Virus record (IMG/VR): IMGVR_UViG_3300049846_003297
Location: 1 to 50,356 of that record
Source of the DNA: a virus
Strand: one strand, 5' to 3'
Length of the DNA: 50,356 nt
Shown: positions 3,965 to 26,228 of the stretch, piece after piece
Layout of the letters: the number at the start of each line of letters is the position of its first letter
Position numbering within the stretch: position 1 is the stretch's first letter
The notes under the pieces: model-generated
The model's input: the letters and a program-made list of their open reading frames with translations, nothing else
Databases searched by the model: none
Told to the model about the DNA's origin: nothing
Made by a program: the position numbers and the translations under genes

Positions 3965-4013
3965 CTTAACATCTCTTACTTCATATGTAATGTTCACATA
4001 TGGAGAAAACAAT

Positions 4014-5740: not shown

Positions 5741-6143
5741 ACCTTCTTTCGAAACAATCTATATGAATCTTGCTCTTCAATTGGAGACACGATCTACTTG
5801 TCAACGCAAGCAAGTAGGTACTGTCATTACTAGTGATGACTTTCGTTACGTATATGGTGTTGGGTACAACGGAAATGCATCAATGTTAGTTAATACTTGC
5901 GAAAAACCTGAGATCCCAGGAGGTTGTCTTTGCCTTCATTCCGAAGAAAATGCGATAATTAATTGTAATGCTCAGCGTTCTCAGCCTAAGATTGTTTTCG
6001 TTACTTGGTCTCCTTGTCGTATGTGCGCAAAAAGATTGATCAATTTGGGTAGCGTACAAAAAGTCTATTATCATAGAGAATATAGAGATTTGTCTAGTCT
6101 CGATCTACTTAAGTCTGTTGGAATAGAGAGTTTTAAGTTATAA
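5733..6143 (+). CDS. dCMP deaminase family protein
   Basis: The 136 aa protein belongs to the zinc-dependent cytidine/deoxycytidylate deaminase family. Zinc ligands are H69 (in HSE rather than the usual HAE), C95 and C98 (PCRMC), with E71 as the proton shuttle. The early segment RSTCQRKQVGTVI is typical of dCMP deaminases. The likely reaction is dCMP to dUMP, feeding dTMP synthesis during phage replication. The gene overlaps its upstream neighbour by 8 bases. dCMP is preferred over cytidine as substrate from the family pattern; the sequence alone does not prove it. Confidence 0.88.
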   Translation: MDRPSFETIYMNLALQLETRSTCQRKQVGTVITSDDFRYVYGVGYNGNASMLVNTCEKPEIPGGCLCLHSEENAIINCNAQRSQPKIVFVTWSPCRMCAKRLINLGSVQKVYYHREYRDLSSLDLLKSVGIESFKL

Positions 6144-8540: not shown

Positions 8541-9140
8541 ATGACAATAGGATATGTTACAAGAAAACATAAGTTCGATGCTGCGCATAGAGTAATGTTT
8601 GAAAAAGTAAAGTGTTTTAATATGCATGGTCACGAATATCATTTGGAGTTAACTCTAAGTTATAATGAAATTCACTCAATTGGTTATGCAATTGATTTTA
8701 AGGAGATCCGTAGAGTTGGAATGAGTTTTATAGATAAGCGCTTCGATCATGGAGCTATTTACAATCCAGCTGATATCGATTTTATCGAACCTTGTAGAAA
8801 ACACAATACAAAAATTCATCTCATGAACCTTATGGGCGAAGGTAATTTTTGCAATCCTAGTGCAGAAAATATAGTTAAAGAACTCTTCTTTGCTTTCAGT
8901 AAGTTACTAGACAATCCACAGAACTGCAATCTACTCGTACACTCTGTCAAACTATACGAAACGGTCAATTGCTACGTTACTTGCTACAGAGATACTTTGA
9001 GCGCCCAAGATTGGACTAATTTGGAATCGAGTCAATACGCTCGAGATATAGAACTCTACAAGAAGCAGATGGGAGAGTTTGAATATGATTCAAGAAAAGC
9101 TTCATCCAACTCAATAGAAGTAGATTCAATAGAAAATTAA
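8541..9140 (+). CDS. queD: QueD-like 6-carboxytetrahydropterin synthase (PTPS fold)
   Basis: The 199 aa protein belongs to the 6-pyruvoyltetrahydropterin synthase/QueD family. Zinc-binding His are H16 (FDAAHR), H29 and H31 (HGH); C25, four residues before HGH, matches the catalytic Cys of QueD. AIDFKEI, the RFDH motif, the PSAEN segment and the late Glu (YETVNCYVT) are all in place. QueD makes a precursor of preQ0, used for queuosine in tRNA or for 7-deazaguanine in phage DNA. No QueC, QueE or transglycosylase partner is in this window, so the end use is open. The last 45 residues extend beyond the usual fold. Confidence 0.85.
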   Translation: MTIGYVTRKHKFDAAHRVMFEKVKCFNMHGHEYHLELTLSYNEIHSIGYAIDFKEIRRVGMSFIDKRFDHGAIYNPADIDFIEPCRKHNTKIHLMNLMGEGNFCNPSAENIVKELFFAFSKLLDNPQNCNLLVHSVKLYETVNCYVTCYRDTLSAQDWTNLESSQYARDIELYKKQMGEFEYDSRKASSNSIEVDSIEN

Positions 9141-11933: not shown

Positions 11934-13847
11934 ATGACAGATCTAGAAATTCGCTATCCTTCTCAACAAGACATTCTTCCTTTCACAACCACAGTCACTG
12001 TAACTGTTGGTGATAACATAAATGCATTGAGAGAATCTATTCTTAATATGCAACGTGTACTAGGATTGGATGTAAATATAGGATTATTTACTCCTAATCC
12101 TCAACAAGCAACTGTAGCAGATCGTTTGACACGAATAGAACGAGGAATTGCTGAACGCAATTTGGTGTTTCGAGAGATTAATGTTTCAGATGCCCTACAA
12201 GTTCTTCTCAATAAAAACAACAAAGCCTTTGTAAATATTGGACTTGGATCTCCAACCGAAGTTGTTCCTGTAACAATTAAGGGACCTCTTACAATCTTAT
12301 CTCCAATGATCGCAGAACCAAGAACCTTAATACAAACACCAGTAACAATTGACGTCTCTACCTTCAACAATCAAGCATCTGCAAATTCCCTAATCAAAGG
12401 TAAAGCTAATTCACTTCAACCTCTTCTACGCATTCATGATACAAGCGACGGCTACGAAACTACTGCCGTACATATCATTGGTAATTTAAAAGTAGAAGGT
12501 ATCTTAGAGGCTGAATATAGCATTGATCATAATAAATTAACAAATATAGATACTGTACCTACAGAAGCAACTCGCGGAACAGTCAAGCATGTCACACAAG
12601 GAAACTGGCACTCTCATCGTAAGGGTCGCTATGATTCTGACAAAAAAACTTGGATCGTCGATTCATCAACCTCCACCGGAGATTTCGGTGTGTTAGATCA
12701 TAACGATCTTCAAGGATGGGGGACACTCCCCACACACGACAATAGCTTCATCCCCTCATCTGAAATCCAGTATCATGTTACTGGAGGCGACTTACATTCT
12801 CACAGCAAAGGTGATGGCGCTCAAATCAATCATAATGATCTCAAAAATATATCTCCTAAGTTCTCTAACCATGTTACAGGAGGCGACTCGCACAAACATA
12901 CTAGTTCTGGAGATGGAGGTCAGATATCACATACCGATCTTGCTGATATTTCTACAACAGGCACAAACGCTCTCCATGTTACGGGTGGCGACTCACATGC
13001 TCATGCGTTGGATTCGGATGGTAATCCAATTGGGAACGGTGGTCAAATCGATCATAATCATCTCCTCAATATTGATCCAGCTTCGTCCAATCATGTAACT
13101 GGTGGAAATTTGCACACTCATAGCCCAGATGGAGATGGAGCTCCTATAGATCATGCCAATTTGTTGAATGTAGGAAGTTTAACACACGAAGAAATTGAAA
13201 ATAAAATTAATACATTTCGTGCAATTAAGACAGGTACTGCTTCTTTTACGCCTTCAACTTACAATGAAATTACAATTCAGCATGGACTTGGTACAGATCA
13301 ATTTTCTGTATTCTGGAGCATACTAGGAGTTAATTATGCACCACCTTCTAGTGCTACTGATCTTGGTGTCATTTATGTTGCTGATCGTGACAGTACTTCC
13401 TTCAAATTAAAGAGAATTGGTGGATCTATTCCTGGACCAGCTGTAAAAGCACAAATGATTACAAATTATGGAAGCGCCAATAAAAACATCCAATGGATTG
13501 CTAAAAATCCAGGAACAGCTGGAAATCTTATTTCTATCGAATATGAACCAGAAGCTGCTGGCGATCCTATTCTGGGTGGAAATGATATTTTTGTAGAAGC
13601 AACTTCAACGCCTCCTACTTTTACAGTTCACTACGATGAGACAGCCTCTGTAACAGCAACCGCCATCAGAGCTGCAGTATTATCAGATCCAGTTGCAACA
13701 ATATTTGTAACAGCAGATTTAGTAGGAGATGGTTTAGGAACCTTCTCATCATCTGATGGTTACGGTCCTGCATTTCTGACTGGTGGTTTAGATAACTCTG
13801 GATTCCAACAATTGGAAATAATGTGGACTACAATAGCGAATGTCTAA
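11934..13847 (+). CDS. Fibre-like structural protein with His-rich repeats
   Basis: The 637 aa protein has AAGGAG upstream. Its N-terminus (about residues 25-50) has IN-x-LRESILNMQRVLG, a virion-docking pattern shared with the S74 fibre at 1304. Residues about 219-412 contain five repeats built on HVTGG(D/N)xHxH...(I/L)xHxxL, which may bind metal ions as the HxH motifs of other phage fibres do. The C-terminal third has a beta domain with PGTAGNLISIEY and DGYGPAFLTGG. No S74 domain is present. A homing-endonuclease-like gene overlaps its last 8 bases. Confidence 0.75.
   Translation: MTDLEIRYPSQQDILPFTTTVTVTVGDNINALRESILNMQRVLGLDVNIGLFTPNPQQATVADRLTRIERGIAERNLVFREINVSDALQVLLNKNNKAFVNIGLGSPTEVVPVTIKGPLTILSPMIAEPRTLIQTPVTIDVSTFNNQASANSLIKGKANSLQPLLRIHDTSDGYETTAVHIIGNLKVEGILEAEYSIDHNKLTNIDTVPTEATRGTVKHVTQGNWHSHRKGRYDSDKKTWIVDSSTSTGDFGVLDHNDLQGWGTLPTHDNSFIPSSEIQYHVTGGDLHSHSKGDGAQINHNDLKNISPKFSNHVTGGDSHKHTSSGDGGQISHTDLADISTTGTNALHVTGGDSHAHALDSDGNPIGNGGQIDHNHLLNIDPASSNHVTGGNLHTHSPDGDGAPIDHANLLNVGSLTHEEIENKINTFRAIKTGTASFTPSTYNEITIQHGLGTDQFSVFWSILGVNYAPPSSATDLGVIYVADRDSTSFKLKRIGGSIPGPAVKAQMITNYGSANKNIQWIAKNPGTAGNLISIEYEPEAAGDPILGGNDIFVEATSTPPTFTVHYDETASVTATAIRAAVLSDPVATIFVTADLVGDGLGTFSSSDGYGPAFLTGGLDNSGFQQLEIMWTTIANV
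12588..13170 (+). repeat. Five His-rich tandem repeats in the fibre gene
   Basis: The repeats begin with His codons at 12588, 12774, 12870, 12975 and 13092. Each encodes HVTxG(N/D)xHxH, a Gly/Asp-rich loop, then a conserved H(N/T/A)xL segment. The first copy carries a longer insert. The copies are diverged at DNA level, so this is an old protein repeat. Confidence 0.85.
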
Positions 13848-15357
13848 TATAGAAATAGGTGACAGATTTCATTACTGGGAAGTTGTTGAGAGATCTCCTA
13901 GCAATCAATTCATTTGTCTTTGTACTGCCTGCAATTCTACTCGCAAGATGGTTAAGAAGCAATGGCTCGTAGAGGGACGATCTAAGAGTTGTGGATGTAT
14001 ACGTAAAAATAAAAGAACTACCAATGTGGCGCATTCTAATATAGAACTTCAAGTTGGGCAACAATACAATTCTTGGCAAATCATAGCTTTTACTGCCAAA
14101 GGAGCTCCAATTTGTAGATGTTTGATGTGTAACGACACTATCAAGACACTGAAGAAAAATGTACTTATTCATGGTAGATCTAGGAGTTGTGGTTGTCAGA
14201 AAAATGCTCAAAAAAATCTTTTGCAAGCAGGAGATAGTTTTGGAAACTGGAGAGTCGTAGAAAATACCTCTCAACGCAATATTTTATGTAAATGTATTTG
14301 TGGCAATCAAAGAGAAGTGAGTTATGTAGATCTTTTACATGGCAAAAGTCGATCATGCGGTTGTAGTTCTCAGCTTTTAGCAACTGAAACTAACTTTGAA
14401 AGATATGGTCATTCTCATCCTCATCAATCTGCATTGATTAAAGATAAAAAGCAGCAAAGTATGCTTTTAAAGTATGGAGTTCATCATAGTTTTGAACTTA
14501 TTGATCCAACAAAGCCCAGTAAGGCTGAGCTCGAAATACTAGAGTGGGTGCAACAATTTTATCCACAAGCCTCTAAGTTCAAGAGAGGTGGTCGCGAATT
14601 AGATATTCTTGTTCCTGAGCTTAACTTAGGAATTGAATACAACGGTCTTTTTTGGCATAATGAACATAAGGTTAGCAAAAACTATCATTTAGAAAAAACT
14701 AAACATTTTGCTGCGCTAGGTATTAGAGTAATTCATATTTTTGAGCATGAATGGTTAAGAAGACAAAGCCAAGTTAAATCATTTCTTCGATCAGCACTTC
14801 AAAAAAACGAATATAAAATAGGTGCTAGAGAATGTGATTTTGTTTTTTCTAATGACAAAATAGAAATACAGAAAGCTCAAGATCTTTTAGAGTTGACTCA
14901 TATTCAAGGTAAAGCAACTAACCCCCTATATGTAGTTAATATTTATCATAAAAATGAACTCATTGGAGTAGCAACTTTTGGTAAGCATCATAGAAATAGT
15001 AAGGACTGGATACTTTCTAGGTTCGCTACACGAGCTAACTATACTATACAGGGAGCCTTAGCTAAGATTTCTAGGTTAGCATGTGAAAAATTACAAGAGA
15101 AAATCATTTCGTGGGCTGATTATAGACTTAGTACTGGAAATGGCTATCTTAAGGCAGGATGGAAATTAAAGGAATTACTACCTCCAGATTATTTTTATCA
15201 TAAGCAACTCCAGGTATTTAGTAAACAAAGTAGACAAAAGAAGAAAGTTAAAACACCTTCTAGTATGACTGAGCACCAACATGCTCTTCTCGATGGATTA
15301 TCGAGAATATATGATTGTGGTAAGATTAGATTTGAATTCACACCAATAAGGAATTGA
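13840..15357 (+). CDS. Homing-endonuclease-like protein: three Cys-repeat modules, Vsr-like nuclease and C-terminal domain
   Basis: The 505 aa protein starts 8 bases inside the end of the fibre gene. Three modules with WEVVE/WQIIA/WRVVE and SCGC ends cover about residues 5-48, 66-112 and 125-173. FERYGHSHPHQS and LLKYGVHHSF follow, the usual linker of this phage nuclease family. The nuclease core shows D255, E266-Y-N268 and H273 (RELDILVP, GIEYNGLFWHNE), a Vsr/PD-(D/E)XK-like site. A further domain of about 190 aa (residues 315-505) is absent from the paralogue at 96-1292; it resembles the C-terminal part common in phage mobile endonucleases. It is likely a free-standing mobile gene. The cleavage site is not visible. 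Confidence 0.78.
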   Translation: MSNIEIGDRFHYWEVVERSPSNQFICLCTACNSTRKMVKKQWLVEGRSKSCGCIRKNKRTTNVAHSNIELQVGQQYNSWQIIAFTAKGAPICRCLMCNDTIKTLKKNVLIHGRSRSCGCQKNAQKNLLQAGDSFGNWRVVENTSQRNILCKCICGNQREVSYVDLLHGKSRSCGCSSQLLATETNFERYGHSHPHQSALIKDKKQQSMLLKYGVHHSFELIDPTKPSKAELEILEWVQQFYPQASKFKRGGRELDILVPELNLGIEYNGLFWHNEHKVSKNYHLEKTKHFAALGIRVIHIFEHEWLRRQSQVKSFLRSALQKNEYKIGARECDFVFSNDKIEIQKAQDLLELTHIQGKATNPLYVVNIYHKNELIGVATFGKHHRNSKDWILSRFATRANYTIQGALAKISRLACEKLQEKIISWADYRLSTGNGYLKAGWKLKELLPPDYFYHKQLQVFSKQSRQKKKVKTPSSMTEHQHALLDGLSRIYDCGKIRFEFTPIRN

Positions 15358-15360
15358 AAC

Positions 15361-15615
15361 ATGAGATTATATAGGGTAGAGACACTTACAAGTTACGTAG
15401 CTGGTCAGGATGAAGTATTTGAAACAGTGGCTCTTATTGTGCCAGAGTACGCTTTGAGTTCGTACGAATTTCATGCATGTGAATATATAGGTGATTTAGC
15501 AATAGAGTTCGAATTAGTAAAGCGTGATAGTCAGACTCCTACTTCTTCTCAAGAAAACAAAGTAGTTAAGTTAGAAAAAAAGAGTAAATCTAAATCAAAA
15601 ACTGACGATAAATAG
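15361..15615 (+). CDS. Hypothetical protein with Lys-rich tail
   Basis: The 84 aa protein starts 3 bases after the nuclease gene, with AAGGAA upstream. The first 60 residues are beta-like (YRVETL, ETVALIVPEYAL, EFELVKRD), and the end is a Lys/Ser-rich disordered tail. It is not recognised. Confidence 0.6.
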   Translation: MRLYRVETLTSYVAGQDEVFETVALIVPEYALSSYEFHACEYIGDLAIEFELVKRDSQTPTSSQENKVVKLEKKSKSKSKTDDK

Positions 15616-15670
15616 ATCTTGAATCCTTTCTCTCATTAGGGTATATTAAATATATACTCTATGAGGAAAT
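15616..15670 (+). promoter_or_regulatory. Palindrome upstream of the NAD+ block
   Basis: GTATAT (15641-15646), spacer TAAAT, ATATAC (15652-15657) form an inverted repeat just upstream of the GAGG site of the next gene. It could be an operator or an RNA hairpin. AT-rich palindromes can also arise by chance. Confidence 0.3.
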
Positions 15671-15985
15671 ATGAATTCGATTTTAGAAGCTTTCGAAACA
15701 GAAATACTATCCTTAAGTGATAGTGAAAAGCAGGATTTAGAATATCCAGGCGATGAGGTGATCTCTCTTGCTAAGAGATTCCTCTCAAGGTCTCCTAATA
15801 TCTCAGCTCGTCTAGAAAGAGTTTCAGAAGATGGAAGAGGAGGCTTAGTACTTATTTTTTCTCAAAAACTACAGATTAATATTTCAAGAAACTTAACCTT
15901 TTTCGTCTGCCCAAACTTCGGAGAAGTTCGAAGCATACATACCTTCGACACAATTCAACAACTCATCGAACTATACTTTACATGA
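15671..15985 (+). CDS. Hypothetical protein
   Basis: The 104 aa protein has a helical acidic N-terminal half (FETEILSLSDSEKQDLEY) and a beta-like second half (GGLVLIFSQKLQINIS, FFVCPNFGEV). GAGG precedes the ATG. It is not recognised. It lies 11 bases upstream of the PRPP synthetase gene and is probably co-transcribed. Confidence 0.65.
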   Translation: MNSILEAFETEILSLSDSEKQDLEYPGDEVISLAKRFLSRSPNISARLERVSEDGRGGLVLIFSQKLQINISRNLTFFVCPNFGEVRSIHTFDTIQQLIELYFT

Positions 15986-15996
15986 CAGAGGATTAA

Positions 15997-16950
15997 ATGC
16001 AAAATCTAGTACTTCTCAATGGTAATGCCACTATCCCCTTAGCAGAAAATGTATCTTTTTTACTGGAGCAAGATTCCAAATCGAATCTCCTAATATCGCG
16101 TTTTGCTGATGGTGAGATTAGAGTAGAATTAGAGTGTAATGTTCGAGGTAAGGATGTATATATTCTACAATCCATTTCTCGTAGTCCTACTAACTCAGTA
16201 AACGATTCTTTAATGGAGGCACTCATTATTGCAGATGCCTGTAGGAGAGCTTCTGCTGCTAGTATTACTTTAGTAGCTCCATATTATGGATATTCTCGTC
16301 AGGAGCGTAAGGAGAAGCCACGAACTCCAATTACTGCAAAGCTTACAGCTGATCTTATTCAATCCTCCGGGATCACCCGCGTAGTAAGTATGGAGCTACA
16401 TGCAGGTGCAATACAGGGATTCTTCAACATCCCTTTCGATCATCTATTTGCGAAGAAAATTTTTGCCGAACATCTAAAAGAGATTGATATAGTTGTATCG
16501 CCTGATGCTGGCGGAGCCTCTAGAGCTCGTTCTTTAGCTAAAGAATTAAATTGCGGTTTAGCTATAATAGACAAAAGAAGAGATAAGCCTAATAGCTCTG
16601 AAGTCATGCATGTTCTAGGCGATATTATAGGTAAAAATTGTGTCATCTACGATGATATGTGCGATACGGGTGGCTCTTTAGTCAAAGCCGCAGAATCCCT
16701 TATTGCGCAAGGTGCTAAATCAGTCAAAGCAGCAGTAACTCATGCTTTATTTAGTAAAGATGCTTTGTTCAAAATTCTACATTCTCCTCTACAAGAAATG
16801 ATTGTAACAGATACCGTAGATTTTAGGTATGCACAAGGATTCGATGAAGTAGCAACCAATCCGAAATTCTCGATACTTTCATCAGCACCTCTAATTGGGG
16901 AGGCTATTAAGCGCATTCATACTAAACAGTCGGTTAGTTCGTTATTTTGA
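15997..16950 (+). CDS. prs: Ribose-phosphate pyrophosphokinase (PRPP synthetase family)
   Basis: The 317 aa protein has the normal length and order of Prs motifs: FADGEIRVELECNVRG, the ATP-binding APYYGYSRQERK, ELHAGAIQGFF (usually DLHAEQIQGFF), the catalytic loop IIDKRRDKPNSSEVMH and the PRPP loop YDDMCDTGGS. The usual reaction is ribose-5-phosphate + ATP to PRPP + AMP. AGAGG precedes the start. In phages, Prs homologues beside a nicotinamide phosphoribosyltransferase can act in NAD+ rebuilding; in NARP1 systems the Prs-like enzyme (Adps) instead makes ADP-ribose pyrophosphate. The changed ELHAGA segment leaves that alternative open. Here the presence of an NMN adenylyltransferase favours ordinary PRPP synthesis. 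Confidence 0.93.
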   Translation: MQNLVLLNGNATIPLAENVSFLLEQDSKSNLLISRFADGEIRVELECNVRGKDVYILQSISRSPTNSVNDSLMEALIIADACRRASAASITLVAPYYGYSRQERKEKPRTPITAKLTADLIQSSGITRVVSMELHAGAIQGFFNIPFDHLFAKKIFAEHLKEIDIVVSPDAGGASRARSLAKELNCGLAIIDKRRDKPNSSEVMHVLGDIIGKNCVIYDDMCDTGGSLVKAAESLIAQGAKSVKAAVTHALFSKDALFKILHSPLQEMIVTDTVDFRYAQGFDEVATNPKFSILSSAPLIGEAIKRIHTKQSVSSLF

Positions 16951-17038
16951 GGAAAATCAATTGTTGATTTCTCTTCTTTCAGAGCTTAAACTTACTAATC
17001 CAAGAGAGAATGGGTTAGAGTAATTGCAAAGGAACAAC
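16951..17038 (+). other. Intergenic region with two hairpins
   Basis: Right after the prs stop, AAATCAA (16954-16960), loop TTG and TTGATTT (16964-16970) form a stem followed by a pyrimidine-rich tract, a weak terminator candidate. Further on, CTAATCC and GGGTTAG can pair (one G-U) around a loop that contains AGAGAG. AAAGGA at 17028-17033 is the ribosome site of the next gene. Confidence 0.4.
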
Positions 17039-17836
17039 ATGAGAGTTTTAAGTAAAGAACAATTTTTGAAAATTTCAGCTTTTTTTTGCGAGTTAGAGAT
17101 CGAGAAAGCTCGTAAGATAGGTATTCTATCTCCTAAAAGAGAGGATTTTTATATATTAGCTGCAGGAAATTATTATCGAGAGAATTTTAGTTTCAATATT
17201 AATTATTATTCTCCTCGTAAAGTAAGAAATGATTTAGAAGCTTTTTTGATCGACGCTGAAAATCTTCGTGAGGAAAGTCTTGTAGTGGCGCTGCACAACC
17301 ACTGCAAGAAAAAATCTTCTTTGTATGTAAAAGCTCTCAAATCTTATGATCCTTCGATATTTTTAGATCGAGTGAAGCACTCATGTTTACTAGAGAGAAT
17401 TGTTAAATCTCCTCCATCCAGCACTGTTTTACTAGAGCACTATCTTATAGCAAAATCGTCACTCTTAATGAGACAAGGAGAGATTAGTATACATTTTGAG
17501 TGCGATATTGAAGATGAGGAGGTAGAATTTGATTTTGACAACGAACAAAAATGTATGGAGCAATATCTTCAAGCTTGCAAAGCTCAATTTAAAGAAATGA
17601 AAAAGTATTTGGTAGATCCTGCAGAAGCATTGGAAATTTATGCTCATTTACCTGTTTCTAAAGATGAAGACGATGATTACTATGATTATACCTCAGCTTC
17701 TATAAGGAGATTTGCAGCAGCTGTAGATCCTACTTACCTTCCATTTCTTCTACTCGATCAAAGTGAAAATAATAGGCAATTTGCTGTCATGTTATCGAAA
17801 TATCTAAATGGAGAGAAAAGTGAGATTGCCGTTTAA
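17039..17836 (+). CDS. Hypothetical protein in the NAD+ block
   Basis: The start is placed at ATG 17039, behind AAAGGA; a TTG at 17024 overlaps that site and is unlikely. The 265 aa product is predicted mostly helical, with an acidic stretch near residue 155 (CDIEDEEVEFDFDNE) and another near 210 (DEDDDYYDY). I recognise no motif. It lies between the prs gene and the NMNAT-Nudix gene, so a link to NAD+ or nucleotide metabolism is possible but unproven. Confidence 0.7.
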   Translation: MRVLSKEQFLKISAFFCELEIEKARKIGILSPKREDFYILAAGNYYRENFSFNINYYSPRKVRNDLEAFLIDAENLREESLVVALHNHCKKKSSLYVKALKSYDPSIFLDRVKHSCLLERIVKSPPSSTVLLEHYLIAKSSLLMRQGEISIHFECDIEDEEVEFDFDNEQKCMEQYLQACKAQFKEMKKYLVDPAEALEIYAHLPVSKDEDDDYYDYTSASIRRFAAAVDPTYLPFLLLDQSENNRQFAVMLSKYLNGEKSEIAV

Positions 17837-18203
17837 TTTGAATTCAATTAAGTCTTTCATACAAGACTCCCTTTCTACAAAAGGATTTCAGATCTATTTC
17901 TCTTCGCCACACCCTGCCTATCGATCTTTTGGTTTGGATTGTAGTGAGTATTATGAGTTTGGTTTTATTGCTCTACATCTTTATTATTTAAATATTGTAT
18001 TTACTAACGATAGAGTAGAGTATAAAGTAGAGACTTTTTATAGTATACAAAAAGCATTGTTCGATATAATTAAGTTAGATCCTCACTTACATCTTACCTC
18101 GCCTGACTTTACAACTAGATTTATAGCAGAACAAATAATCAAATATCCTCATTCTACAGCGCGTGTAATCATTCGAGATTTATATTTATTAAGTAAAGAA
18201 TAA
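17820..18203 (+). CDS. Hypothetical protein in the NAD+ block
   Basis: The frame opens at ATG 17808, but GGAGAG at 17810-17815 points to GTG 17820 as the real start. The gene overlaps the end of the previous one. The product is about 127 aa, rich in Phe and Tyr (YYEFGFIALHLYYL), with a mixed alpha/beta pattern and no clear transmembrane helix. It is not recognised. Confidence 0.6.
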   Translation: MRLPFNLNSIKSFIQDSLSTKGFQIYFSSPHPAYRSFGLDCSEYYEFGFIALHLYYLNIVFTNDRVEYKVETFYSIQKALFDIIKLDPHLHLTSPDFTTRFIAEQIIKYPHSTARVIIRDLYLLSKE

Positions 18204-18221
18204 TATTAGGAGATTAATATT

Positions 18222-18518
18222 ATGAGCCCAGTATTCTTGAGTTGTCTTCTTTTTGGTATTATACTTACATCGATAGGATTCACTGCCCTATGGTGGGAGC
18301 GCAAAATGAGTGAGATTACTAAAAAATATATCAATAAAGATCTTTCTTTTTGGCAAGCACGAGAACTCGCTTTGATGGGCGCTAAAATTAAATGTATAAG
18401 TATCTCCTCAACTATGCAGAGAGTTTTGACAAAGCAAGACTTTTTAGAAGAAGAGTATAGTGCTGTTCCAACATTCTTCTTAGAAGAAATAAATGGAACT
18501 TGGGAAGTAGTAGATTGA
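18222..18518 (+). CDS. Putative membrane-anchored small protein
   Basis: The 98 aa protein has AGGAG upstream. Residues 3-24 form one hydrophobic helix (VFLSCLLFGIILTSIGFTAL), followed by WWERK and a soluble domain of about 70 aa. The likely layout is an N-terminal membrane anchor with the rest in the cytoplasm, since the flanking residues after the helix are basic. It is not recognised. A promoter-like region and the NMNAT-Nudix gene follow. Confidence 0.65.
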   Translation: MSPVFLSCLLFGIILTSIGFTALWWERKMSEITKKYINKDLSFWQARELALMGAKIKCISISSTMQRVLTKQDFLEEEYSAVPTFFLEEINGTWEVVD

Positions 18519-18544
18519 CATTTGTATTGATTTAATATTATTAT
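18515..18544 (+). promoter_or_regulatory. Candidate sigma70-type promoter before the NMNAT-Nudix gene
   Basis: TTGACA at 18515-18520 is a perfect -35 box. TATTAT at 18539-18544, 18 bases away, matches five of six positions of a -10 box. TATTGATT at 18525-18532 lies in the spacer. The -35 box overlaps the end of the previous gene. Confidence 0.5.
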
Positions 18545-18547
18545 AAC

Positions 18548-18585
18548 ATAACGCAGAGAGCGTTATAATTTCACGGAGTGTGAAA
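18548..18585 (+). promoter_or_regulatory. Two leader hairpins, the second holding the ribosome site in its loop
   Basis: The first hairpin is ATAACGC (18548-18554), loop AGAGA, GCGTTAT (18560-18566), perfect over seven pairs. The second is TTTCAC (18569-18574), loop GGAGT, GTGAAA (18580-18585), which puts the GGAG ribosome site in the loop, directly before the ATG. This may control translation of the NMNAT-Nudix gene. An AGAGA-loop hairpin also precedes the Nampt gene. Confidence 0.5.
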
Positions 18586-19623
18586 ATGAATAATTACGCA
18601 GTTTACATTGGGCGTTTCCAGCCTTTCCATCACGCACACTTAGAAGTGTGTCACCAAGCTTTAAGATCGGCCGACAAATTAATTCTGTTAGTCGGCTCTA
18701 GTCAAGCTTCTCCTAGCATTAGAAATCCATTTTCGTTTGCCGAACGAAAAAAGATGATTGAGGATTCGCTATCGTCTGAGTTCAGACAGCGAACAATTAT
18801 TCTTCCAATTCCTGATTATTTTTATAGCGATAATGCTTGGGTAGCTCATGCTCAGCAGTTAGTTACTTCTACAGTAGGAAATCTCAAGAATACTACCATA
18901 ACTTTAGTAGGTTACAAGAAAGATCATACTTCTTACTATCTCGATCTTTTTCCTACGTGGCAATTCGAATCATTCGATAGCTCTGATACCTCCCTATCAA
19001 GTACTCACATAAGAGAATATTATTTCGATGATGAAACAAATTCAACCTTACTACAATCTTACTTAAAAGATACTGTTCCAGAACAAGTAGTACTCTTTCT
19101 TCAGGAGTTTCAAAAAACTAACAAGTACAAAATGCTTTGTGGAGAGTACAAGGCAATAACTGAGTATAAAAAGGCATGGAGTAAAGCTCCCTTTCCACCT
19201 ACATTTATAACTACAGACGCAGTTGTTACTTGTGGTGGACATGTTCTTCTAATTACACGAAAAGCTCAGCCAGGTGCTGGTCTTCTTGCGTTACCTGGTG
19301 GTTTTATCAATCAAGAAGAAAGACTTGAAGACGGTTGTTTACGTGAACTAAAAGAAGAGACTCGAATCAAAATCCCCCTACCAGTACTCAGAGGATCTAT
19401 AGTTGAATCGAAAGTATTTGACCATCCACTTCGTTCTGTACGTGGAAGAACAGTTACACATGCCTACTATATTAATTTGCAAGAACATGAATTACCTAAA
19501 GTTAAGGGTGGTGATGACGCTTCTCATGCTGCTTGGGTACCCTTGAGTTGGATTTACAATAATCCTGACAAACTGTTCGAAGATCATTATCAAATCATCA
19601 TTGCATTTCTTGGACGAGGATAG
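18586..19623 (+). CDS. Bifunctional NMN adenylyltransferase / Nudix hydrolase
   Basis: The start is placed at ATG 18586 because GGAG at 18575-18578 fits it; an in-frame GTG at 18580 is too close. The 345 aa protein has an N-terminal nucleotidyltransferase domain with GRFQPFHHAH (9-18) and a later SSTHIRE, as in NadM-type NMN adenylyltransferases (NMN + ATP to NAD+). From about residue 200 a Nudix domain follows, with its box at 239-261 (GFINQEE...RELKEET; Thr replaces the usual Gly). The same fusion occurs in phage KVP40 (NatV) and in cyanobacteria, where the Nudix part cleaves ADP-ribose to AMP and ribose-5-phosphate. It is flanked by NAD+ genes and ends 2 bases before the next start. Confidence 0.93.
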   Translation: MNNYAVYIGRFQPFHHAHLEVCHQALRSADKLILLVGSSQASPSIRNPFSFAERKKMIEDSLSSEFRQRTIILPIPDYFYSDNAWVAHAQQLVTSTVGNLKNTTITLVGYKKDHTSYYLDLFPTWQFESFDSSDTSLSSTHIREYYFDDETNSTLLQSYLKDTVPEQVVLFLQEFQKTNKYKMLCGEYKAITEYKKAWSKAPFPPTFITTDAVVTCGGHVLLITRKAQPGAGLLALPGGFINQEERLEDGCLRELKEETRIKIPLPVLRGSIVESKVFDHPLRSVRGRTVTHAYYINLQEHELPKVKGGDDASHAAWVPLSWIYNNPDKLFEDHYQIIIAFLGRG

Positions 19624-19625
19624 TG

Positions 19626-19877
19626 ATGAAAAATATAGAAAATATGCATCCAAAGATTTTTGGTAGAATACATCATATTGAACCTATTACTGATTCGTGT
19701 CCAAGATGTGGTGCTGTAAGGGTTGCAAATATTCCATGTGCTGTTTCAGGTTGGGTTGGATTTACTAGTAAAGAACATGATTGCGGACCAGAATATCTTC
19801 TACGATTGTGGGTGCCTACAAATCCCAAGAAAAGAAAAGAGTTAGAGAGCATTTTTAATGATCTTATAGGAAAATAA
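19626..19877 (+). CDS. Small Cys-rich (zinc-ribbon-like) protein in the NAD+ block
   Basis: ATG 19626 is chosen over GTG 19623 because AGGA at 19617-19620 spaces better. The 83 aa protein has CPRC, a further Cys near the middle (NIPCAVSG) and HDCGPEY, enough for one zinc site. The C-terminal 25 residues are a basic helix. It sits between the NMNAT-Nudix and Nampt genes, so a helper role in NAD+ metabolism is possible. No family is recognised. Confidence 0.6.
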   Translation: MKNIENMHPKIFGRIHHIEPITDSCPRCGAVRVANIPCAVSGWVGFTSKEHDCGPEYLLRLWVPTNPKKRKELESIFNDLIGK

Positions 19878-19879
19878 CT

Positions 19880-19920
19880 TCTGCAGAGAGCAGATTAACT
19901 TAACAAAGGAGTTTTGTTTT
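19880..19920 (+). promoter_or_regulatory. AGAGA-loop hairpin in the Nampt leader
   Basis: TCTGC (19880-19884), loop AGAGA, GCAGA (19890-19894) form a short stem with the same five-base loop and the same flanking C-G closing pair as the hairpin at 18548. AAAGGAG at 19905-19911 is the ribosome site of the following ATG. Confidence 0.4.
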
Positions 19921-21297
19921 ATGGTAACGAGCAACATTATTTTATCAACCGACTCATATAAGGTGAGTCACGCAAAGCAGTACAAGTCTGGAACAACCGA
20001 AGTATATAGTTACTTCGAAAGTAGGGGAGGAGTGTTTGACAAGACTGTTTTCTTTGGATTAAATTACTTACTTCAGAGGTATCTAGTAAAACCAGTAACA
20101 AGAGAAGACATCGAAGAAGCAGCTAATTTCTTCAAACTACACTTCGGAAGCGAAGAGCTTTTTAATCGAAAGGGATGGGAATATATTCTTGAAAAACATC
20201 AAGGTAAGCTTCCTGTAAGCATCAAGGCTGTTGCAGAAGGAACAGTTGTAGATACACATAATGTACTAATGACTGTTGTAAATACAGATCCAGAGTGCTT
20301 CTGGTTGACCAACTATTTAGAAACCTTATTATCGCAGGTTTGGTATCCTACTACTGTAGCAACACTCTCAAGACAACAAAAACAATACATCAAAGTAGCA
20401 CTAGAAAAATCTGCCGATACGACTGACGGTTTATTATTTAAGCTCCATGATTTTGGCATGAGAGGATCTACCTCTCTCGAATCATCTGCAATCGGTGGAG
20501 CTGCACATCTTGTTAATTTTATGGGCACTGACACTATGTCTGCTCTAGTTTTACTGAGAGATTATTATCGAGCTCCTATGGCAGGATTCTCAATTCCTGC
20601 GAGCGAACACGCCAATATAACCTCATGGAAGCGTGAATGTGAGGTTGATGCACTAGAAAACATGCTTGACATCTATCCAACTGGATTAGTTGCATGTATC
20701 AGTGATTCATTTAATATTTACGATGCTTGTGAGAAATTATGGGGTGAAAAGCTCAAAGAGAAGATTCTCAGTAGAGATGGCACTCTTGTGGTACGTTTTG
20801 ACTCAGGAGATCCAAATGTAGTTGTACCAAAGTGTTTAAATATTCTTGCTGAAAAATTTGGTTACACAATTAATTCAAAAGGATATAAAGTGCTTCCTCC
20901 TCAATTACGAACTATCCAAGGAGATGGTATCGATCTGGATACACTTCCTACACTTCTAAACTCGATCATGGATGCGGGATTCTCAATTGAGAATATTGCT
21001 TTTGGTTCAGGTGGTGGATTATTACAGAAGGTAAATCGCGATACATGTAAATTTGCCTTCAAGTGTAGTTCTGTTATGACAAATGGGGAGCAAATTGAAG
21101 TCTATAAACAACCTGTTGACGATCCAGGTAAGAAGTCAAAAAAAGGTAAAATGAAGCTTATCAAAGAATCGAATAAGTTCCAAACTGTAGCCTTAACAGA
21201 TCCTCGAGAGGATCAGTTGATAGAAGTTTATAGGAATGGAGATATTTTAGTAGTACCTACACTCGATCAAATACGGAAGCAAGCAGAATTAGTATAA
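19921..21297 (+). CDS. nadV: Nicotinamide phosphoribosyltransferase (Nampt/NadV family)
   Basis: The 458 aa protein matches the Nampt family over its full length: TDSYKVSHAKQY and YSYFESRGG near the start, LHDFGMRG, GTDTMSALVLL, PASEHANITSW with catalytic His at residue 230, ISDSFNIYDACEKLWG, the phosphate-binding RFDSGDP (R292, D294), IQGDGIDLDTLP and ENIAFGSGGGLLQK. The usual reaction is nicotinamide + PRPP to NMN. In NARP1 phage systems a Nampt homologue (Namat) instead joins nicotinamide to ADP-ribose pyrophosphate; sequence alone cannot exclude that. The adjacent NMN adenylyltransferase favours NMN as product. Confidence 0.95.
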   Translation: MVTSNIILSTDSYKVSHAKQYKSGTTEVYSYFESRGGVFDKTVFFGLNYLLQRYLVKPVTREDIEEAANFFKLHFGSEELFNRKGWEYILEKHQGKLPVSIKAVAEGTVVDTHNVLMTVVNTDPECFWLTNYLETLLSQVWYPTTVATLSRQQKQYIKVALEKSADTTDGLLFKLHDFGMRGSTSLESSAIGGAAHLVNFMGTDTMSALVLLRDYYRAPMAGFSIPASEHANITSWKRECEVDALENMLDIYPTGLVACISDSFNIYDACEKLWGEKLKEKILSRDGTLVVRFDSGDPNVVVPKCLNILAEKFGYTINSKGYKVLPPQLRTIQGDGIDLDTLPTLLNSIMDAGFSIENIAFGSGGGLLQKVNRDTCKFAFKCSSVMTNGEQIEVYKQPVDDPGKKSKKGKMKLIKESNKFQTVALTDPREDQLIEVYRNGDILVVPTLDQIRKQAELV

Positions 21298-21383
21298 ATG
21301 ATTGAAATTTAAGACATTGTTGCAGCACACTTCTAGCTCTGGTAAATGGGCTAGAAGAAGTGCTGATTTAATAGGAGATACAT
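21298..21383 (+). other. Leader with long hairpin before the NADAR gene
   Basis: CAGCAC and CTTCTAGC (from about 21324) pair with GCTAGAAG and GTGCTG (to about 21366), interrupted by a small internal mismatch, around a loop of about 12 bases. The T-run expected of a terminator is missing. AGGAG just before GTG 21384 is the ribosome site. The hairpin may separate or regulate NADAR expression. Confidence 0.45.
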
Positions 21384-21881
21384 GTGAAAATAACAGATAA
21401 ATATGTTTTCTTTTGGGGTGGTCCATTTAGTCAGTGGTTCTCCTCTTCGTTTCAAGACGAGAAAGGAGTCACTTACAGCTGTGCAGAGCAGTATATGATG
21501 GCTCAAAAAGCCCTTCTTTTTGAAGATGTAGATATCTACAACCAAATTCTATTAGAAGATAATCCGAAACAACAGAAAGCATTAGGAAGAAAAGTCAAAA
21601 ATTTTGATCCTAAAAAATGGGATACTGTTTGCAGGGATATTGTAAAACAAGGCAATATGGCTAACTTTAGGCAAAATCCTCAATTGAAGAAGATATTACT
21701 TGAAACTGGAGATAGAAAATTGGTTGAAGCAAGTCCATACGATAAAATTTGGGGGATTGGCTTAGGTGAAAATGATCCTAGAATTCATAATGAGAAGAAT
21801 TGGCAAGGTAAAAATTATCTAGGCGAAGTTCTGATGGAAGTAAGAGACTTGCTTAAGTTAGATAATATGTATAATGAATAA
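21384..21881 (+). CDS. NADAR-family (YbiA-like) protein
   Basis: The 165 aa protein starts at GTG (an overlapping ATG at 21382 runs straight into a stop). It shows the NADAR signature: FFWGGPFSQWF, YSCAEQYMMAQKALLF, NMANFRQNP and LVEASPYDKIWGIGLG. NADAR proteins are N-glycosidases; some act on riboflavin precursors, and others remove ADP-ribose from guanine bases, reversing DarT-type toxins. Its place directly after Nampt suggests a role in coping with ADP-ribosylation or recycling ADP-ribose. The substrate is inferred. Confidence 0.92.
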   Translation: MKITDKYVFFWGGPFSQWFSSSFQDEKGVTYSCAEQYMMAQKALLFEDVDIYNQILLEDNPKQQKALGRKVKNFDPKKWDTVCRDIVKQGNMANFRQNPQLKKILLETGDRKLVEASPYDKIWGIGLGENDPRIHNEKNWQGKNYLGEVLMEVRDLLKLDNMYNE

Positions 21882-21898
21882 TAATAAGGTAAATAAAT

Positions 21899-22438
21899 AT
21901 GCCTGTACTTCCGATTGATAAGAATTATCTTATATATGCTAAAACAATTATTTACGATGTCAATGATTTGACTTTAGAAGATAAAGACTTTCTTAGTGAT
22001 CAAGTACAGGCAATGTCTATTGTACAATCCTGTCTACAAGATTTTCCTGTCTCTGAATTTAATGATAAGGATAAAAAGCATTTTGAAGATTTGCAGCAAA
22101 TATCTCTTCTATCGTTATTCAAACATCATCTCTTATCCCTAGGATTCGTCTTTGTGGATCATGTAGAAAAGTTAGTAGAAGATAATCAGGGAGTGCATGA
22201 GCTAGATGGTTGGTATGGTCTATCTCTAACAAATCCTAACATCGATCGTGAAACAAGAGATAAACTCCCCAAAGCAATAGAACGTATTCAAGCTGCTCAA
22301 CTATATTTCGATAATTTGAAGAAAGAACATCCTACCGATTACATGGGACATCTATGGGAGGCTTATCTTAAGCACTTTCCCAATGAAGAAAACTGGTTCT
22401 TTCCAATCTGTACAATCTCTTCAAAAAAGAATAGCTAA
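21899..22438 (+). CDS. Hypothetical protein at the end of the NAD+ block
   Basis: The 179 aa protein is mainly helical, with an early IYDVNDLTLEDKDFL segment and a Trp/Phe-rich end (HLWEAYLKHFPNEENWFFP). It is not recognised. It starts 17 bases after the NADAR gene and is likely co-expressed. Confidence 0.65.
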   Translation: MPVLPIDKNYLIYAKTIIYDVNDLTLEDKDFLSDQVQAMSIVQSCLQDFPVSEFNDKDKKHFEDLQQISLLSLFKHHLLSLGFVFVDHVEKLVEDNQGVHELDGWYGLSLTNPNIDRETRDKLPKAIERIQAAQLYFDNLKKEHPTDYMGHLWEAYLKHFPNEENWFFPICTISSKKNS

Positions 22439-22605
22439 AAATATTTTATAAGTGCTTTGGCACGCACTTATAGGCAAATTTCTTCTTGCCCACATCTCCT
22501 ACATCACCTATTTGTATTGATTTTCCTTAAATAATTAAGGAAGAGACGCGTTTTAGCGAATCAAAACGCAAAATACAACATGGGCATGTTGGCTGAAGGC
22601 AGAAA
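22439..22605 (+). promoter_or_regulatory. Structured intergenic region before the tail operon
   Basis: Five inverted repeats lie in 167 bases: TATAAGTGC/GCACTTATA (22447-22472), GGCAA/TTGCC (22473-22490), TTCCTTAA/TTAAGGAA with loop ATAA (22523-22542), GCGTTTT/AAAACGC (22548-22569) and CAACAT/ATGTTG (22576-22591). TTGTATTGATTT lies between the second and third. The first two may end the NAD+ block transcripts, although no T-run follows; the later ones would lie in the leader of the tail mRNA. No tRNA-like fold was found. Confidence 0.5.
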
Positions 22606-24180
22606 ATGGCAAGAGAACTTATTCTCATAGATGAAATCAATCAAGGTGAAGCCTTACCTTTTGAAATCACTATATCTACGCATGCCGATGTCATCGTTGA
22701 CGTATTTGTCCAATCTCTTCGCGAATGGTTCATTAGGAATCCAATCTATACTTATGTTCCAAGAGAAGATAGCTTTGGACCAGACTTCGAGCTCACCAAC
22801 ATCGTAATTGTGGACAAGTACACAGAAGAAGCTCTCTTTCTTCCTTGCATCACCGTAAATTTTAACGGTGGCACTACTAGATGGCTTCAGTTTTCTCATT
22901 CTCCTTTTAATACTATCCTCAAATATCAAATGAATAAGGATGGATCTATTAAGCGAGATCAAGCTGGACGTCCTATTCCTTCTCATTATGAATACAGTGG
23001 ATCCTACGAAACAAGCATTACTTTTAATATAAGCGCTCAAGATACTCTATCTCGTGAAGAGTTAACCAACTACGTTACTGTTGCTTTAAGTGAAGTTTGC
23101 CGAGATGACTTAATGCTTCGAGGAATCTTCATCAGAGGTGTCAATGCTGGTAGTCAAACAGAGATAGAATATCGTGAGAATCATATTTTTCAGGTTTCTA
23201 TTACGGCGGAATTATATACTGAATGGAAAAGAATGATCCCCGTAGGTGAAACACTAAAGAGTATTGGGTTTGAGATGAATGTGATAGATTCATGTCCTGA
23301 ACCTGAAGTTTCTACAGAAACTGTAGAAAAATTACCTATCTATACTTTAGATAACGAATTTTATGTAGTAGATCCAGTTAGTCAAGAACCAATTATTCCT
23401 GACTTGCAGCTTTCTGCTACGAATGTAGAAGCTCCAATTACTTTAGTTTACAATCCATCCACAAATAGATGGGAGGTTAGTTTATTTTGGAAGCAAGCTC
23501 TAATGCAATCCATGATTCCTTATGGTAACTTTATTATAGAATTAACCAAAGGAAGCGCTTCTGCTGAATACCTACAATATGCTGCAGATGCTATCGTTAA
23601 AGCTGAATCACTTAGAGCACTATCTTCTACACAAGGTAGAGCCTTACCAGATGGAACAAAAGTATTGCAAGATTGCTTCATCTTTACAGATGGAACAGTA
23701 GATATACGTTTAAAACAAAAAGGCAACTCGAAATTTGCATCTGTAGTTGTTCAACCTAATAATGATGTAATTTTGAAGATGCTTCCAACGAACAAGTCAC
23801 GAAATGTCCTTATTGCAAAGAATATTGTAGTAGATGCCTATGGATTGGTTACCAGTGGTCAGATCTTTAAGCGTATTACTACTAATAATACAATAAGTGA
23901 CATCCAACTCTCTACTATCGATCAGATCTTTTTAGTTGGAGAAAACTTTAATACAATGACCGCAGTAGATTTATTTATGATTATGCAATTCGCTCAACAA
24001 CCTTTTCGCTATTCCTTATCAACCATTTTAGATAAGATAGATGAATTGCTCACTGAGCTTGCAGATATGTCAGTTACAGTTACCTATAGAGCTAATAAGA
24101 TTACTAGTATTAACAACATCAAGCAAGAATTGGTTGCTCGTAGTGAGAAATTTCTACTTCAGCAACCAATCGGACTATAA
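22606..24180 (+). CDS. Probable tail terminator/neck-type structural protein
   Basis: The 524 aa protein is the first gene of the tail operon, 17 bases before the sheath. The first half (to about residue 230) is a compact alpha/beta part with an extended hairpin region (FNGGTTRWLQFSHSPFNTILKYQM) and FNISAQDTLSREELTNYV; the second half is beta-rich. In myoviruses the gene before the sheath often encodes a tail terminator or connector, so that role is suggested by position only. GAAGG lies upstream of the ATG. Confidence 0.6.
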   Translation: MARELILIDEINQGEALPFEITISTHADVIVDVFVQSLREWFIRNPIYTYVPREDSFGPDFELTNIVIVDKYTEEALFLPCITVNFNGGTTRWLQFSHSPFNTILKYQMNKDGSIKRDQAGRPIPSHYEYSGSYETSITFNISAQDTLSREELTNYVTVALSEVCRDDLMLRGIFIRGVNAGSQTEIEYRENHIFQVSITAELYTEWKRMIPVGETLKSIGFEMNVIDSCPEPEVSTETVEKLPIYTLDNEFYVVDPVSQEPIIPDLQLSATNVEAPITLVYNPSTNRWEVSLFWKQALMQSMIPYGNFIIELTKGSASAEYLQYAADAIVKAESLRALSSTQGRALPDGTKVLQDCFIFTDGTVDIRLKQKGNSKFASVVVQPNNDVILKMLPTNKSRNVLIAKNIVVDAYGLVTSGQIFKRITTNNTISDIQLSTIDQIFLVGENFNTMTAVDLFMIMQFAQQPFRYSLSTILDKIDELLTELADMSVTVTYRANKITSINNIKQELVARSEKFLLQQPIGL

Positions 24181-24197: not shown

Positions 24198-26228
24198 ATG
24201 CCAAACATTCCTGGTATTATTGGGTTCACACTTCCCGGTAGCTACAGTCTCGTAGAGACTCGTGTATCAGCTGTAACGCTTCCAGGCGGTCCTACAGTTG
24301 TCGCTATCTTAGGAAAAGGTCGTAGAGAAGAGTATCTCGTTACAAGAGCTGCTGGAGGTGGTTTAGACGGAGAACCAAAAGGTTTCAATCCTGCTAATGA
24401 TCCTGATGGGCGTCATTTCCAAGTATCAACTTGGGCAGTCGTTCCAGGTAGCATTGAGGTTTTCCTCAATCCAAGAGGAGATGGCACCGATCTCCCACTC
24501 ATTCAAGTATCTAATGAAGATATGGCGCAAGCTTGGGAAGCTGAATTCCAAGACATTGACGGCTACTATATCGACGGCTACAACACTTTTCCAGGATTCA
24601 ATGGCCCCTTCGGTGATTCAGTTGATGCTTATCAAGGTGGTTCTGATGGAAGTGGTTTCTTTGATTCCAAATGGGCACGTCAATATCAACAACTCAAAGC
24701 TCAATTAGGAATCACAGCCGGTTCTCCAGAGCCTAATCACTATTTGTTTGATCCTTCTACAGGTCGAATACTTTTAGATCAAGCTTTGAATCAATTTGAT
24801 ACACTCTTAGTATCCTACATTGCAGAGTCAGATCTAAATAGTCCTGAACTATTTACAGATATTGATGCTTTGTATACGAAACATGGATTTCCTTCCAAAG
24901 AAAATACCATTTCATTACACGCTCAAGTAGCAAATGAGAATGGAGCATCGGTCTTCATAGCAGTCCATGCTGGTGAAGTACTTCAAGGCACTGGTTCATC
25001 TCGTAGGTTAGTACAAGAACCTACTCTTTTTACTGCTCTTAAAGCTCTAGAAAAAGAAGAGTTAGTTGACATTATTGTGCCCACAACTACTTCGCGTGTC
25101 AATAATGAAATTATCATGCCTTTCTATGAAGCAGCACTTCACGGTCCGCTCACTGGTGGAGGAGCATATCTTCAAGAAGATCCTGCAACTGGTGATCAGC
25201 CTGGAATTAATATCTCTCCTTTAGCAGTTATTCCTACAGGTCAACCTGGTGCAGGGAATCCAGTTTACTTAGAAGTATTTAAGAATGGAGTATTATTACA
25301 GTATGGAGTAGATTATTCAGTTCCAAACCTAAATGGATCTTCTCTTAATGCTACTACTAATGTTCTTATTGCACTTGATCCTAATTATCCAGGAGCTACG
25401 CACTCTGTTGATAATACATTACAAGAAGGTGATCGAGTAACCGCCAACTATCTTCCCGATCCAGCTGTCATCAATTTGGTGGCGACCGCTCAATTGGCTT
25501 GCTTGAATCACGCTTCTATAATGTCTGAAACAAAAAATCGTCAAGAAAGAGTTTGTCTCTTCGGTGCTTATGAGTTTGTAGATCTTGATTTTATCCTCGA
25601 TCCAATTACTGGAATCGAAAGCAACTTTGGTATCACAGATTTATCAATGTTCTTCTGGCCAGGTGGCCCTTTTGTCAATCGAACTGTTTCTGGTGAAAAT
25701 CAGATCCTTGATAGTTCAATTGTGGCTGCTGCTGCTGCAGGCTTTATGGCTTCGCGACCAGTTCCTACTTCTCTTTTGAATAAAACTCTTGCTGGCTTTA
25801 CTATCGATCCTCGTCAAAAACTTTCTGTCGATGAAGCCAACTTTGCTGGTGGAGCAGGAGCTTCATTGGTAGCTCCTTTAGCTGCTGGTGGTAAAGTTAC
25901 TGTAGCAAGAACAACTTCAAATAGTGGTTTAGCAACAAAAGAAGAAATGTCGATTGTACGCATTCGTCATGTTGTAGCTAAAACTACAAGAAAGCGCCTA
26001 CAAGATACTTTCATTGGTGGTTTAATAACTCCCAATCTCGTTGCAGATGTTGAGAGTGCAACGAAGAGCATTCTTGAACAGCTTCAATCTCAAGGTTTAA
26101 TTACTAAGTTTCAAAATGTAAGAGCAGTGGTAGATCCAAACGAACCTCGTCAAATCAACGTATCGTTTGATATATCACCAATATTCCCACTAAACTGGAT
26201 CTTCATTAGATTTAGCGTTGGTGTTTAA
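24198..26228 (+). CDS. Contractile tail sheath protein
   Basis: The 676 aa protein has the layout of myovirus sheath proteins: a short N-terminal arm with PGSY, variable beta domains in the middle with DGYYIDGY, a conserved C-terminal part (VNRTVSGENQILDSS, AAAAAGFMASRP, VRIRHVVAKTTRKRLQDTFIG) and the final strand that links neighbouring subunits (INVSFDISPIFPLNWIFIRF). A strong AGAAGGAG site precedes the start. Its position directly before the tube gene confirms the call. Confidence 0.9.
   Translation: MPNIPGIIGFTLPGSYSLVETRVSAVTLPGGPTVVAILGKGRREEYLVTRAAGGGLDGEPKGFNPANDPDGRHFQVSTWAVVPGSIEVFLNPRGDGTDLPLIQVSNEDMAQAWEAEFQDIDGYYIDGYNTFPGFNGPFGDSVDAYQGGSDGSGFFDSKWARQYQQLKAQLGITAGSPEPNHYLFDPSTGRILLDQALNQFDTLLVSYIAESDLNSPELFTDIDALYTKHGFPSKENTISLHAQVANENGASVFIAVHAGEVLQGTGSSRRLVQEPTLFTALKALEKEELVDIIVPTTTSRVNNEIIMPFYEAALHGPLTGGGAYLQEDPATGDQPGINISPLAVIPTGQPGAGNPVYLEVFKNGVLLQYGVDYSVPNLNGSSLNATTNVLIALDPNYPGATHSVDNTLQEGDRVTANYLPDPAVINLVATAQLACLNHASIMSETKNRQERVCLFGAYEFVDLDFILDPITGIESNFGITDLSMFFWPGGPFVNRTVSGENQILDSSIVAAAAAGFMASRPVPTSLLNKTLAGFTIDPRQKLSVDEANFAGGAGASLVAPLAAGGKVTVARTTSNSGLATKEEMSIVRIRHVVAKTTRKRLQDTFIGGLITPNLVADVESATKSILEQLQSQGLITKFQNVRAVVDPNEPRQINVSFDISPIFPLNWIFIRFSVGV

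Follow-up and report, generated by a model that had tools for sequence, protein, structure and literature searches.

An IMG/VR virus record of 50,356 bases (IMGVR_UViG_3300049846_003297; this whole stretch is hereafter the window) carries on its plus strand a phage gene block for phosphoribosyl pyrophosphate (PRPP) synthetase (Prs), NadM, Nampt and NADAR. We read this block, at a probability of roughly 0.55, as a NARP2-like NAD+-rebuilding module of the kind that joins Nampt to a nicotinamide mononucleotide (NMN) adenylyltransferase (NMNAT), here with its own PRPP supply. NARP2 is the reconstitution of NAD+ by a phage with Nampt and NMNAT. As the preliminary description had stated, the four genes lie within 6 kb (15997-21881), and all were found as intact open reading frames (ORFs): Prs, a full-length bacterial-type ribose-phosphate pyrophosphokinase (15997-16950, 317 amino acids); NadM, an NMNAT fused to a Nudix ADP-ribose pyrophosphatase (18580-19623, 347 amino acids); Nampt or NadV, the nicotinamide phosphoribosyltransferase (19921-21297, 458 amino acids); and NADAR of the YbiA subfamily (21384-21881, 165 amino acids). 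The catalytic residues of all four are conserved and the family scores lie far beyond chance. By homology, the four activities would suffice to turn ADP-ribose, nicotinamide and ATP into NAD+, and, as far as homology and catalytic residues can tell, the four-step logic proposed in that description is sound.

In the proposed pathway, a host NADase would split NAD+ into nicotinamide and ADP-ribose during infection. The Nudix domain of NadM would cleave ADP-ribose to AMP and ribose-5-phosphate, which Prs would convert with ATP into PRPP and AMP. Nampt would then join PRPP to nicotinamide, giving NMN, and the adenylyltransferase domain of NadM would form NAD+ from NMN and ATP. NADAR most likely would add further ADP-ribose by hydrolysing a host-made N-glycosidic ADP-ribose adduct. 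Candidate substrates are DNA or RNA carrying guanine-ADP-ribose, and a small ADP-ribose signal. Such hydrolysis would simultaneously undo a defence modification. If true, phages of this kind would need no host enzyme to regenerate NAD+ from the two NADase products, and would themselves provide the PRPP synthesis that a host might otherwise restrict.

The block may counter an NADase by analogy with NARP1 and NARP2, both reported as counter-defences (PMC11984713, PMC12774641). These reports also argue against a general metabolic boost, in which the block would raise NAD+ (and PRPP) to help replication whatever the host and would have no specific part in countering NADase defences, and the combination of NADAR with an ADP-ribose-handling Nudix domain matches the products of an NADase better than a plain supply role. 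NadM and Nampt are, however, a normal bacterial salvage pair, with the two genes close together in 39 of the 80 bacterial NadM loci, and the NAMPT of Vibrio phage phiSt2 is transcribed almost immediately on infection, for which its authors proposed a higher NAD+ supply (PMC5107563). Overall, a general boost is considered unlikely.

Parts of the scheme are already known, namely the pair of NadM-Nudix and Nampt, the logic of ADP-ribose recycling (PMC3680494) and the phage neighbourhood of NADAR with NadM/NadV (PMC9503650, 2022). A study of bacteria proposed that ADP-ribose is recycled via ribose-5-phosphate to PRPP, and saw in the NadM-Nudix fusion a link between NAD use and regeneration (PMC3680494). 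The preliminary description had presented the ADP-ribose step and NADAR as special additions, and neither can be upheld as such: the former is an ordinary part of phage NadM, which was matched in 448 of 50,697 phage records, and the latter had been described beside NadM/NadV. New here are the close grouping of four genes that include a true Prs, the recurrence of this set, and the measured linkage of NADAR to NARP1 and to Nampt-type loci.

Identity of the four enzymes

Prs scored 380 bits on NF002320 (cut-off 297) and 330 bits on TIGR01251, and aligned end to end with the solved Prs structures 3dah and 7xmu at 270-273 bits. The PRPP loop, the ribose-5-phosphate loop and the catalytic KRR loop of class I Prs are all present (SPDAGG, DKRR and DDMCDTGGS). 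Genes like Prs were matched in 894 of the 50,697 phage records, with only 56 covering 80% of the query, and a true full-length Prs is the unusual part of the block. A peptide-pattern search of IMG/VR returned no close relatives of this Prs. Full-length Prs of bacterial type was also seen in short Listeria, Enterococcus and Staphylococcus "phage" records (OR846757, OR848783, OR846991, PQ520305 and similar), some sets of which hold several different Prs genes. These records are probably host DNA in phage assemblies, and full-length Prs from the short records (OR84xxxx) was left out of the phage count.

Nampt matched NAMPT_N (2e-35), NAPRTase (5e-54) and NF006629 (610 bits), and aligned with human-type Nampt structures at 484-498 bits. 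Its residues Y13, F178, R181, D204, H230 and R292 are kept in practically all aligned relatives. By the alignment, the human equivalents are Y18, F193, R196, D219, H247 and R311. The Nampt-type motif GSGGGLLQK together with these catalytic residues is consistent with an enzyme that uses PRPP, and NadM lies 0.3 kb upstream as the NMNAT beside it. Matches to Nampt-like proteins occurred in 1,911 of the 50,697 phage records.

The Prs/Nampt pair could in principle be a mis-named NARP1, that is Adps and Namat, as many phage genes called ribose-phosphate pyrophosphokinase encode short, divergent Prs-like proteins, and a Namat scores as Nampt on NF006629 (529 bits for that of locus L108). This identity is extremely improbable and was ruled out by motif, profile scores and tree. 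Namat, the NARP1 ligase, carries the adenine-clamp motif GSxxxxxxTRD with aromatic residues (PMC12774641), and the Nampt of the window has GSGGGLLQKVNRD at the position of the Namat sequence GSYTYQYNTRD. Aligned Nampt-like proteins of the fetched loci split cleanly into a GGxLLQ..RD group, with this Nampt and most others, and a GSYTYQYNTRD-like group (L108, L109, L111, L114, L117, L119-L122, L129, L131 and L139), and nearly all of the latter loci have an Adps-like gene no more than 10 kb away. Adps-like proteins reach only 82-84 bits on NF002320, far below the 380 bits of this Prs, and the tree places Adps in a group of its own with full support.

NadM scored 423 bits on NF003791 (cut-off 409) and aligned over its full length with solved bifunctional NMNAT/Nudix enzymes (2qjo, 358 bits; 2qjt, 244 bits). 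It holds a HIGH-type motif (GRFQPFHHAH at residue 11), the SSTxxR motif (SSTHIR at 140) and a complete Nudix box (GGFINQEERLEDGCLRELKEET at 240). The HxGH motif appears as its HHAH variant, where other phage NadM carry HNAH, and the catalytic columns are unchanged across ten phage NadM proteins. The Nudix domain is predicted to convert ADP-ribose into AMP and ribose-5-phosphate, given its homology to 2qjo and the naming of the Nudix domain fused to NadM as an ADP-ribose pyrophosphatase (PMC3680494). A divergent phage NadM-Nudix family with about 23% identity to this NadM and a weak adenylyltransferase motif was also observed (L088:6983-8020, L101:4491-5495 and L126:6345-7286).

NADAR matched PF08719 at 186 bits (cut-off 35), and the family was found in 714 of the 50,697 phage records. 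Its residues E35, K42, E115, D120 and W123 correspond to E43, K50, E125, D130 and W133 of Phytophthora nicotianae NADAR, solved with ADP-ribose (PMC11543638; numbering in the 8bau chain is that of the paper plus 2). The class-defining position, E125 in P. nicotianae, is Glu here (E115), as in the YbiA subfamily, whereas it is His in T4 gp30.3 and Asp in NADARs linked to DarT1 (PMC11125620). A NADAR of the DarT1 antitoxin type, which has Asp there and a DarT neighbour, was ruled out by the Glu, and no ADP-ribosyltransferase was recognised among the scanned surrounding genes.

Hydrolysis of guanine-ADP-ribose in vitro is reported for four NADAR subtypes (PMC11125620), and the present one may likewise free ADP-ribose from bases. 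The annotation TIGR02464, which it matches at 171 bits (cut-off 73.7), would instead make it an N-glycosidase of riboflavin intermediates, with any freed ribose-5-phosphate feeding Prs directly. This role is very unlikely in view of the four hydrolysing subtypes, the residues shared with the ADP-ribose contacts of the solved NADAR, and the linkage of NADAR to NARP1, a consumer of ADP-ribose and not of ribose-5-phosphate.

Linkage of NADAR to NAD+-rebuilding loci

A set of 32 records holds both NADAR and a gene of the Nampt family, and in 21 of these the two lie within 5 kb of each other, compared with 2.0 expected by random placement; none of 200,000 simulations reached 21, in a test that ignores the kinship of these partly related records. 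Clustering of the NADARs at 90% identity gave 63 clusters, 22 of which still had such a neighbour (8 with Namat, 13 with Nampt and 1 with an untyped fragment). Clusters nearer to the NADAR of the window had one more often (16 of 31, versus 6 of 32 for the remainder; Fisher p 0.008). Of the 80 closest NADAR genes, 33 had Nampt or Namat within 10 kb. A YbiA-type NADAR is a close neighbour of NARP1 (Namat) in eight distinct NADAR clusters, and no paper stating a pairing of NARP1 and NADAR was found in the literature.

NADAR stands beside two routes that have no enzyme in common, and the metabolite they most plausibly share is ADP-ribose, which NARP1 consumes and the NadM-Nudix type could use as well. 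This position suggests that NADAR supplies ADP-ribose to both Namat-type and Nampt-type pathways, in analogy to RyDEP in a NARP1 operon. We tentatively propose that NADARs of this subfamily act as general suppliers, stripping ADP-ribose from adducts or signals made by host defences. The freed ADP-ribose might then pass either to NARP1 through Adps or to NadM-Nudix, Prs and Nampt. The proposal as a whole is possible with the odds against it. Equally uncertain is the corollary that the present block could be the most complete version, taking ADP-ribose, nicotinamide and ATP to NAD+ without a host enzyme. If true, NADAR, a widespread phage enzyme, would gain a concrete role, and the phage would turn the host's own weapon into NAD+.

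Recurrence of the gene set and layout of the block

A search of phage genomes for the gene set, as suggested in the preliminary description, recovered the complete set within 10 kb in another phage lineage, in nine of the 33 loci above that pair one of the 80 closest NADAR genes with Nampt or Namat (L088, L090-L094, L101, L126 and L128, in about five distinct clusters). These loci hold a divergent NadM-Nudix, Nampt, NADAR and a true Prs, with the Prs of L128 cut by the contig end, and keep the order NadM-Nampt-NADAR of the window. Three huge-phage records (LR756502, LR756504 and LR745206) carry all four genes dispersed, with NadM-Nudix near Nampt, and Prs and NADAR elsewhere. Of the 50 records whose Nampt is closest, comprising phage RAS14 and 49 from IMG/VR, with some fragments among them, 4 hold NADAR. 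Across phages, NadM with Nampt is routine, NADAR occasional and a true Prs rare. A literature search on phage Prs in NAD+ salvage found no description of this gene set. In the tree, the Prs of the window sits on a long branch outside the well-supported clade of L088, L094, L101 and L126. The tree suggests that Prs was recruited independently here and in L101-type phages; a single recruitment is also compatible, as a tree forcing this Prs together with that clade was not rejected (p-AU 0.24), with long branches involved.

Several observations weigh against a self-supplied NAD+ module. The kinship of records in the co-location test described above is one of them. Prs is separated from NadM by 1.6 kb with three ORFs on the plus strand (17024-18518), for none of which a family was found: one of 270 amino acids with a TTG start (17024-17836), one of 131 amino acids (17808-18203) and one of 98 amino acids with a hydrophobic N-terminus as judged by eye (18222-18518). 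The N-terminal domain of Prs was found in none of the 50 closest-Nampt records, taken whole, so that the pathway usually runs on host PRPP. Prs lies 3-6 kb downstream of the trio in the nine loci and upstream of it here. In the NMNAT-Nudix of L088 and L090, HxGQ stands in place of HxGH, which may mean a missing or modified adenylyltransferase activity, and L101 and L126 keep the motif intact; four-gene sets therefore need not all be complete. A phage NADAR that is active in vitro also gave no rescue from DarT1 in E. coli (PMC11125620).

The intervening ORFs, the remote Prs of the huge phages and the lack of Prs in the closest-Nampt phages would also fit genes with separate jobs, in which Prs makes PRPP for nucleotides, NadM and Nampt top up NAD+, and NADAR repairs ADP-ribosylated nucleic acid, with no flow shared between them. 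A dCMP deaminase-like gene (5733-6143) and a QueD-like gene (8541-9140; PTPS, 89 bits) upstream of the block likewise speak of general nucleotide metabolism. Such a division is unlikely, since without a metabolite in common it is difficult to account for NADAR being linked to loci of both the Nampt and the Namat type, and in L101, L126 and L088, which have diverged, Prs still lies within 3-8 kb of the trio.

The genes were correctly described earlier as one block, and need not form a single operon including Prs, given the three ORFs in between. NadM, an ORF of 84 amino acids with a CxxC pair (19623-19877), Nampt, NADAR and an ORF of 179 amino acids (21899-22438) are packed closely on the plus strand, and family searches found no match for either ORF. 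Of the sigma-70-like promoter matches here, the best (18515-18544, plus strand; TTGACA-18-TATTAT, 11/12) lies directly upstream of NadM and is weak evidence, as 34 promoter-like matches were found where 37.2 were expected. The 179-amino-acid ORF is the final gene ahead of a terminator-like hairpin of 11 pairs (22445-22474, plus strand), which would end the NadM-Nampt-NADAR unit ahead of the virion genes. Terminator-like hairpins on both strands (22445-22570) separate the NAD block from these genes, and such sites are more frequent than by chance between 13500 and 24500 (14 found, 5.3 expected). A single transcription unit that starts at NadM, ends with the 179-amino-acid ORF and excludes Prs is a plausible guess and nothing firmer.

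The window is a large-phage fragment, and the phage is contractile-tailed because there are genes for a tail fibre (1304-3295), a tail sheath (24198-26228) and baseplate proteins (47131-47583), all on the plus strand. No tRNA genes were found in it, megablast of 15000-24000 against the phage collection returned no close relative of this phage, and eight proteins without a family, encoded in and around the block, had no relatives in any fetched locus. A homing-endonuclease-like gene with repeated Cys motifs (13840-15357; PHROG 3339 and 559) lies shortly upstream of Prs. Genes of this type are markers of mobile insertion sites, and it may explain mobility of the block. A gene for a Fe-S/radical-type protein was observed at 3990-4886 (phrog_27142, 349 bits), which could form with the QueD-like gene a partial set for 7-deazaguanine or for RNA/DNA modification.

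Comparison with known NAD+-rebuilding systems

The bacterial salvage pair of NadM-Nudix and NadV consists of the same two enzymes, and differs in its surroundings: in the 80 bacterial NadM loci Prs was found within 10 kb in none (one query used), and NADAR near NadM in two only, L184, with Nampt as well, and L224, without it. Capture of a ready-made bacterial four-gene operon accordingly found no counterpart among these loci. In L184 (9358-12549), from an uncultured Pseudomonadales, NADAR, NadM and Nampt stand side by side, so that the trio is not confined to phages. The NadM-NadV-NADAR neighbourhoods of large phages (PMC9503650) come closer, as in Stenotrophomonas phage RAS14, where NadM-Nudix, NADAR and Nampt lie on one strand within about 8 kb, as here, and Prs is missing.

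An ADP-ribose-releasing glycosidase placed among NAD+-rebuilding genes has a parallel in RyDEP, which sits in the NARP1 operon of mycobacteriophage DyoEdafos and feeds NARP1 in vitro (PMC13232231). RyDEP has a RyR domain and its substrates are 2' and 3' cyclic ADP-ribose, whereas here a NADAR is the candidate feeder of a Nampt-type pathway.

NARP2 and the block share the formation of NMN from nicotinamide and PRPP by Nampt and of NAD+ by an NMN adenylyltransferase. The block adds a phage Prs and NADAR, and its NMNAT is of the NadM-Nudix type. NARP1 likewise rebuilds NAD+ from both NADase products and frequently has NADAR as a neighbour (8 of the 63 clusters). It needs two enzymes, Adps and Namat, and keeps the ADP-ribose skeleton, while the pathway proposed here would take four steps, in which ADP-ribose is first split and then rebuilt. 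Reasoned from the reactions, the ATP cost of this Nampt-type route is higher than that of NARP1.

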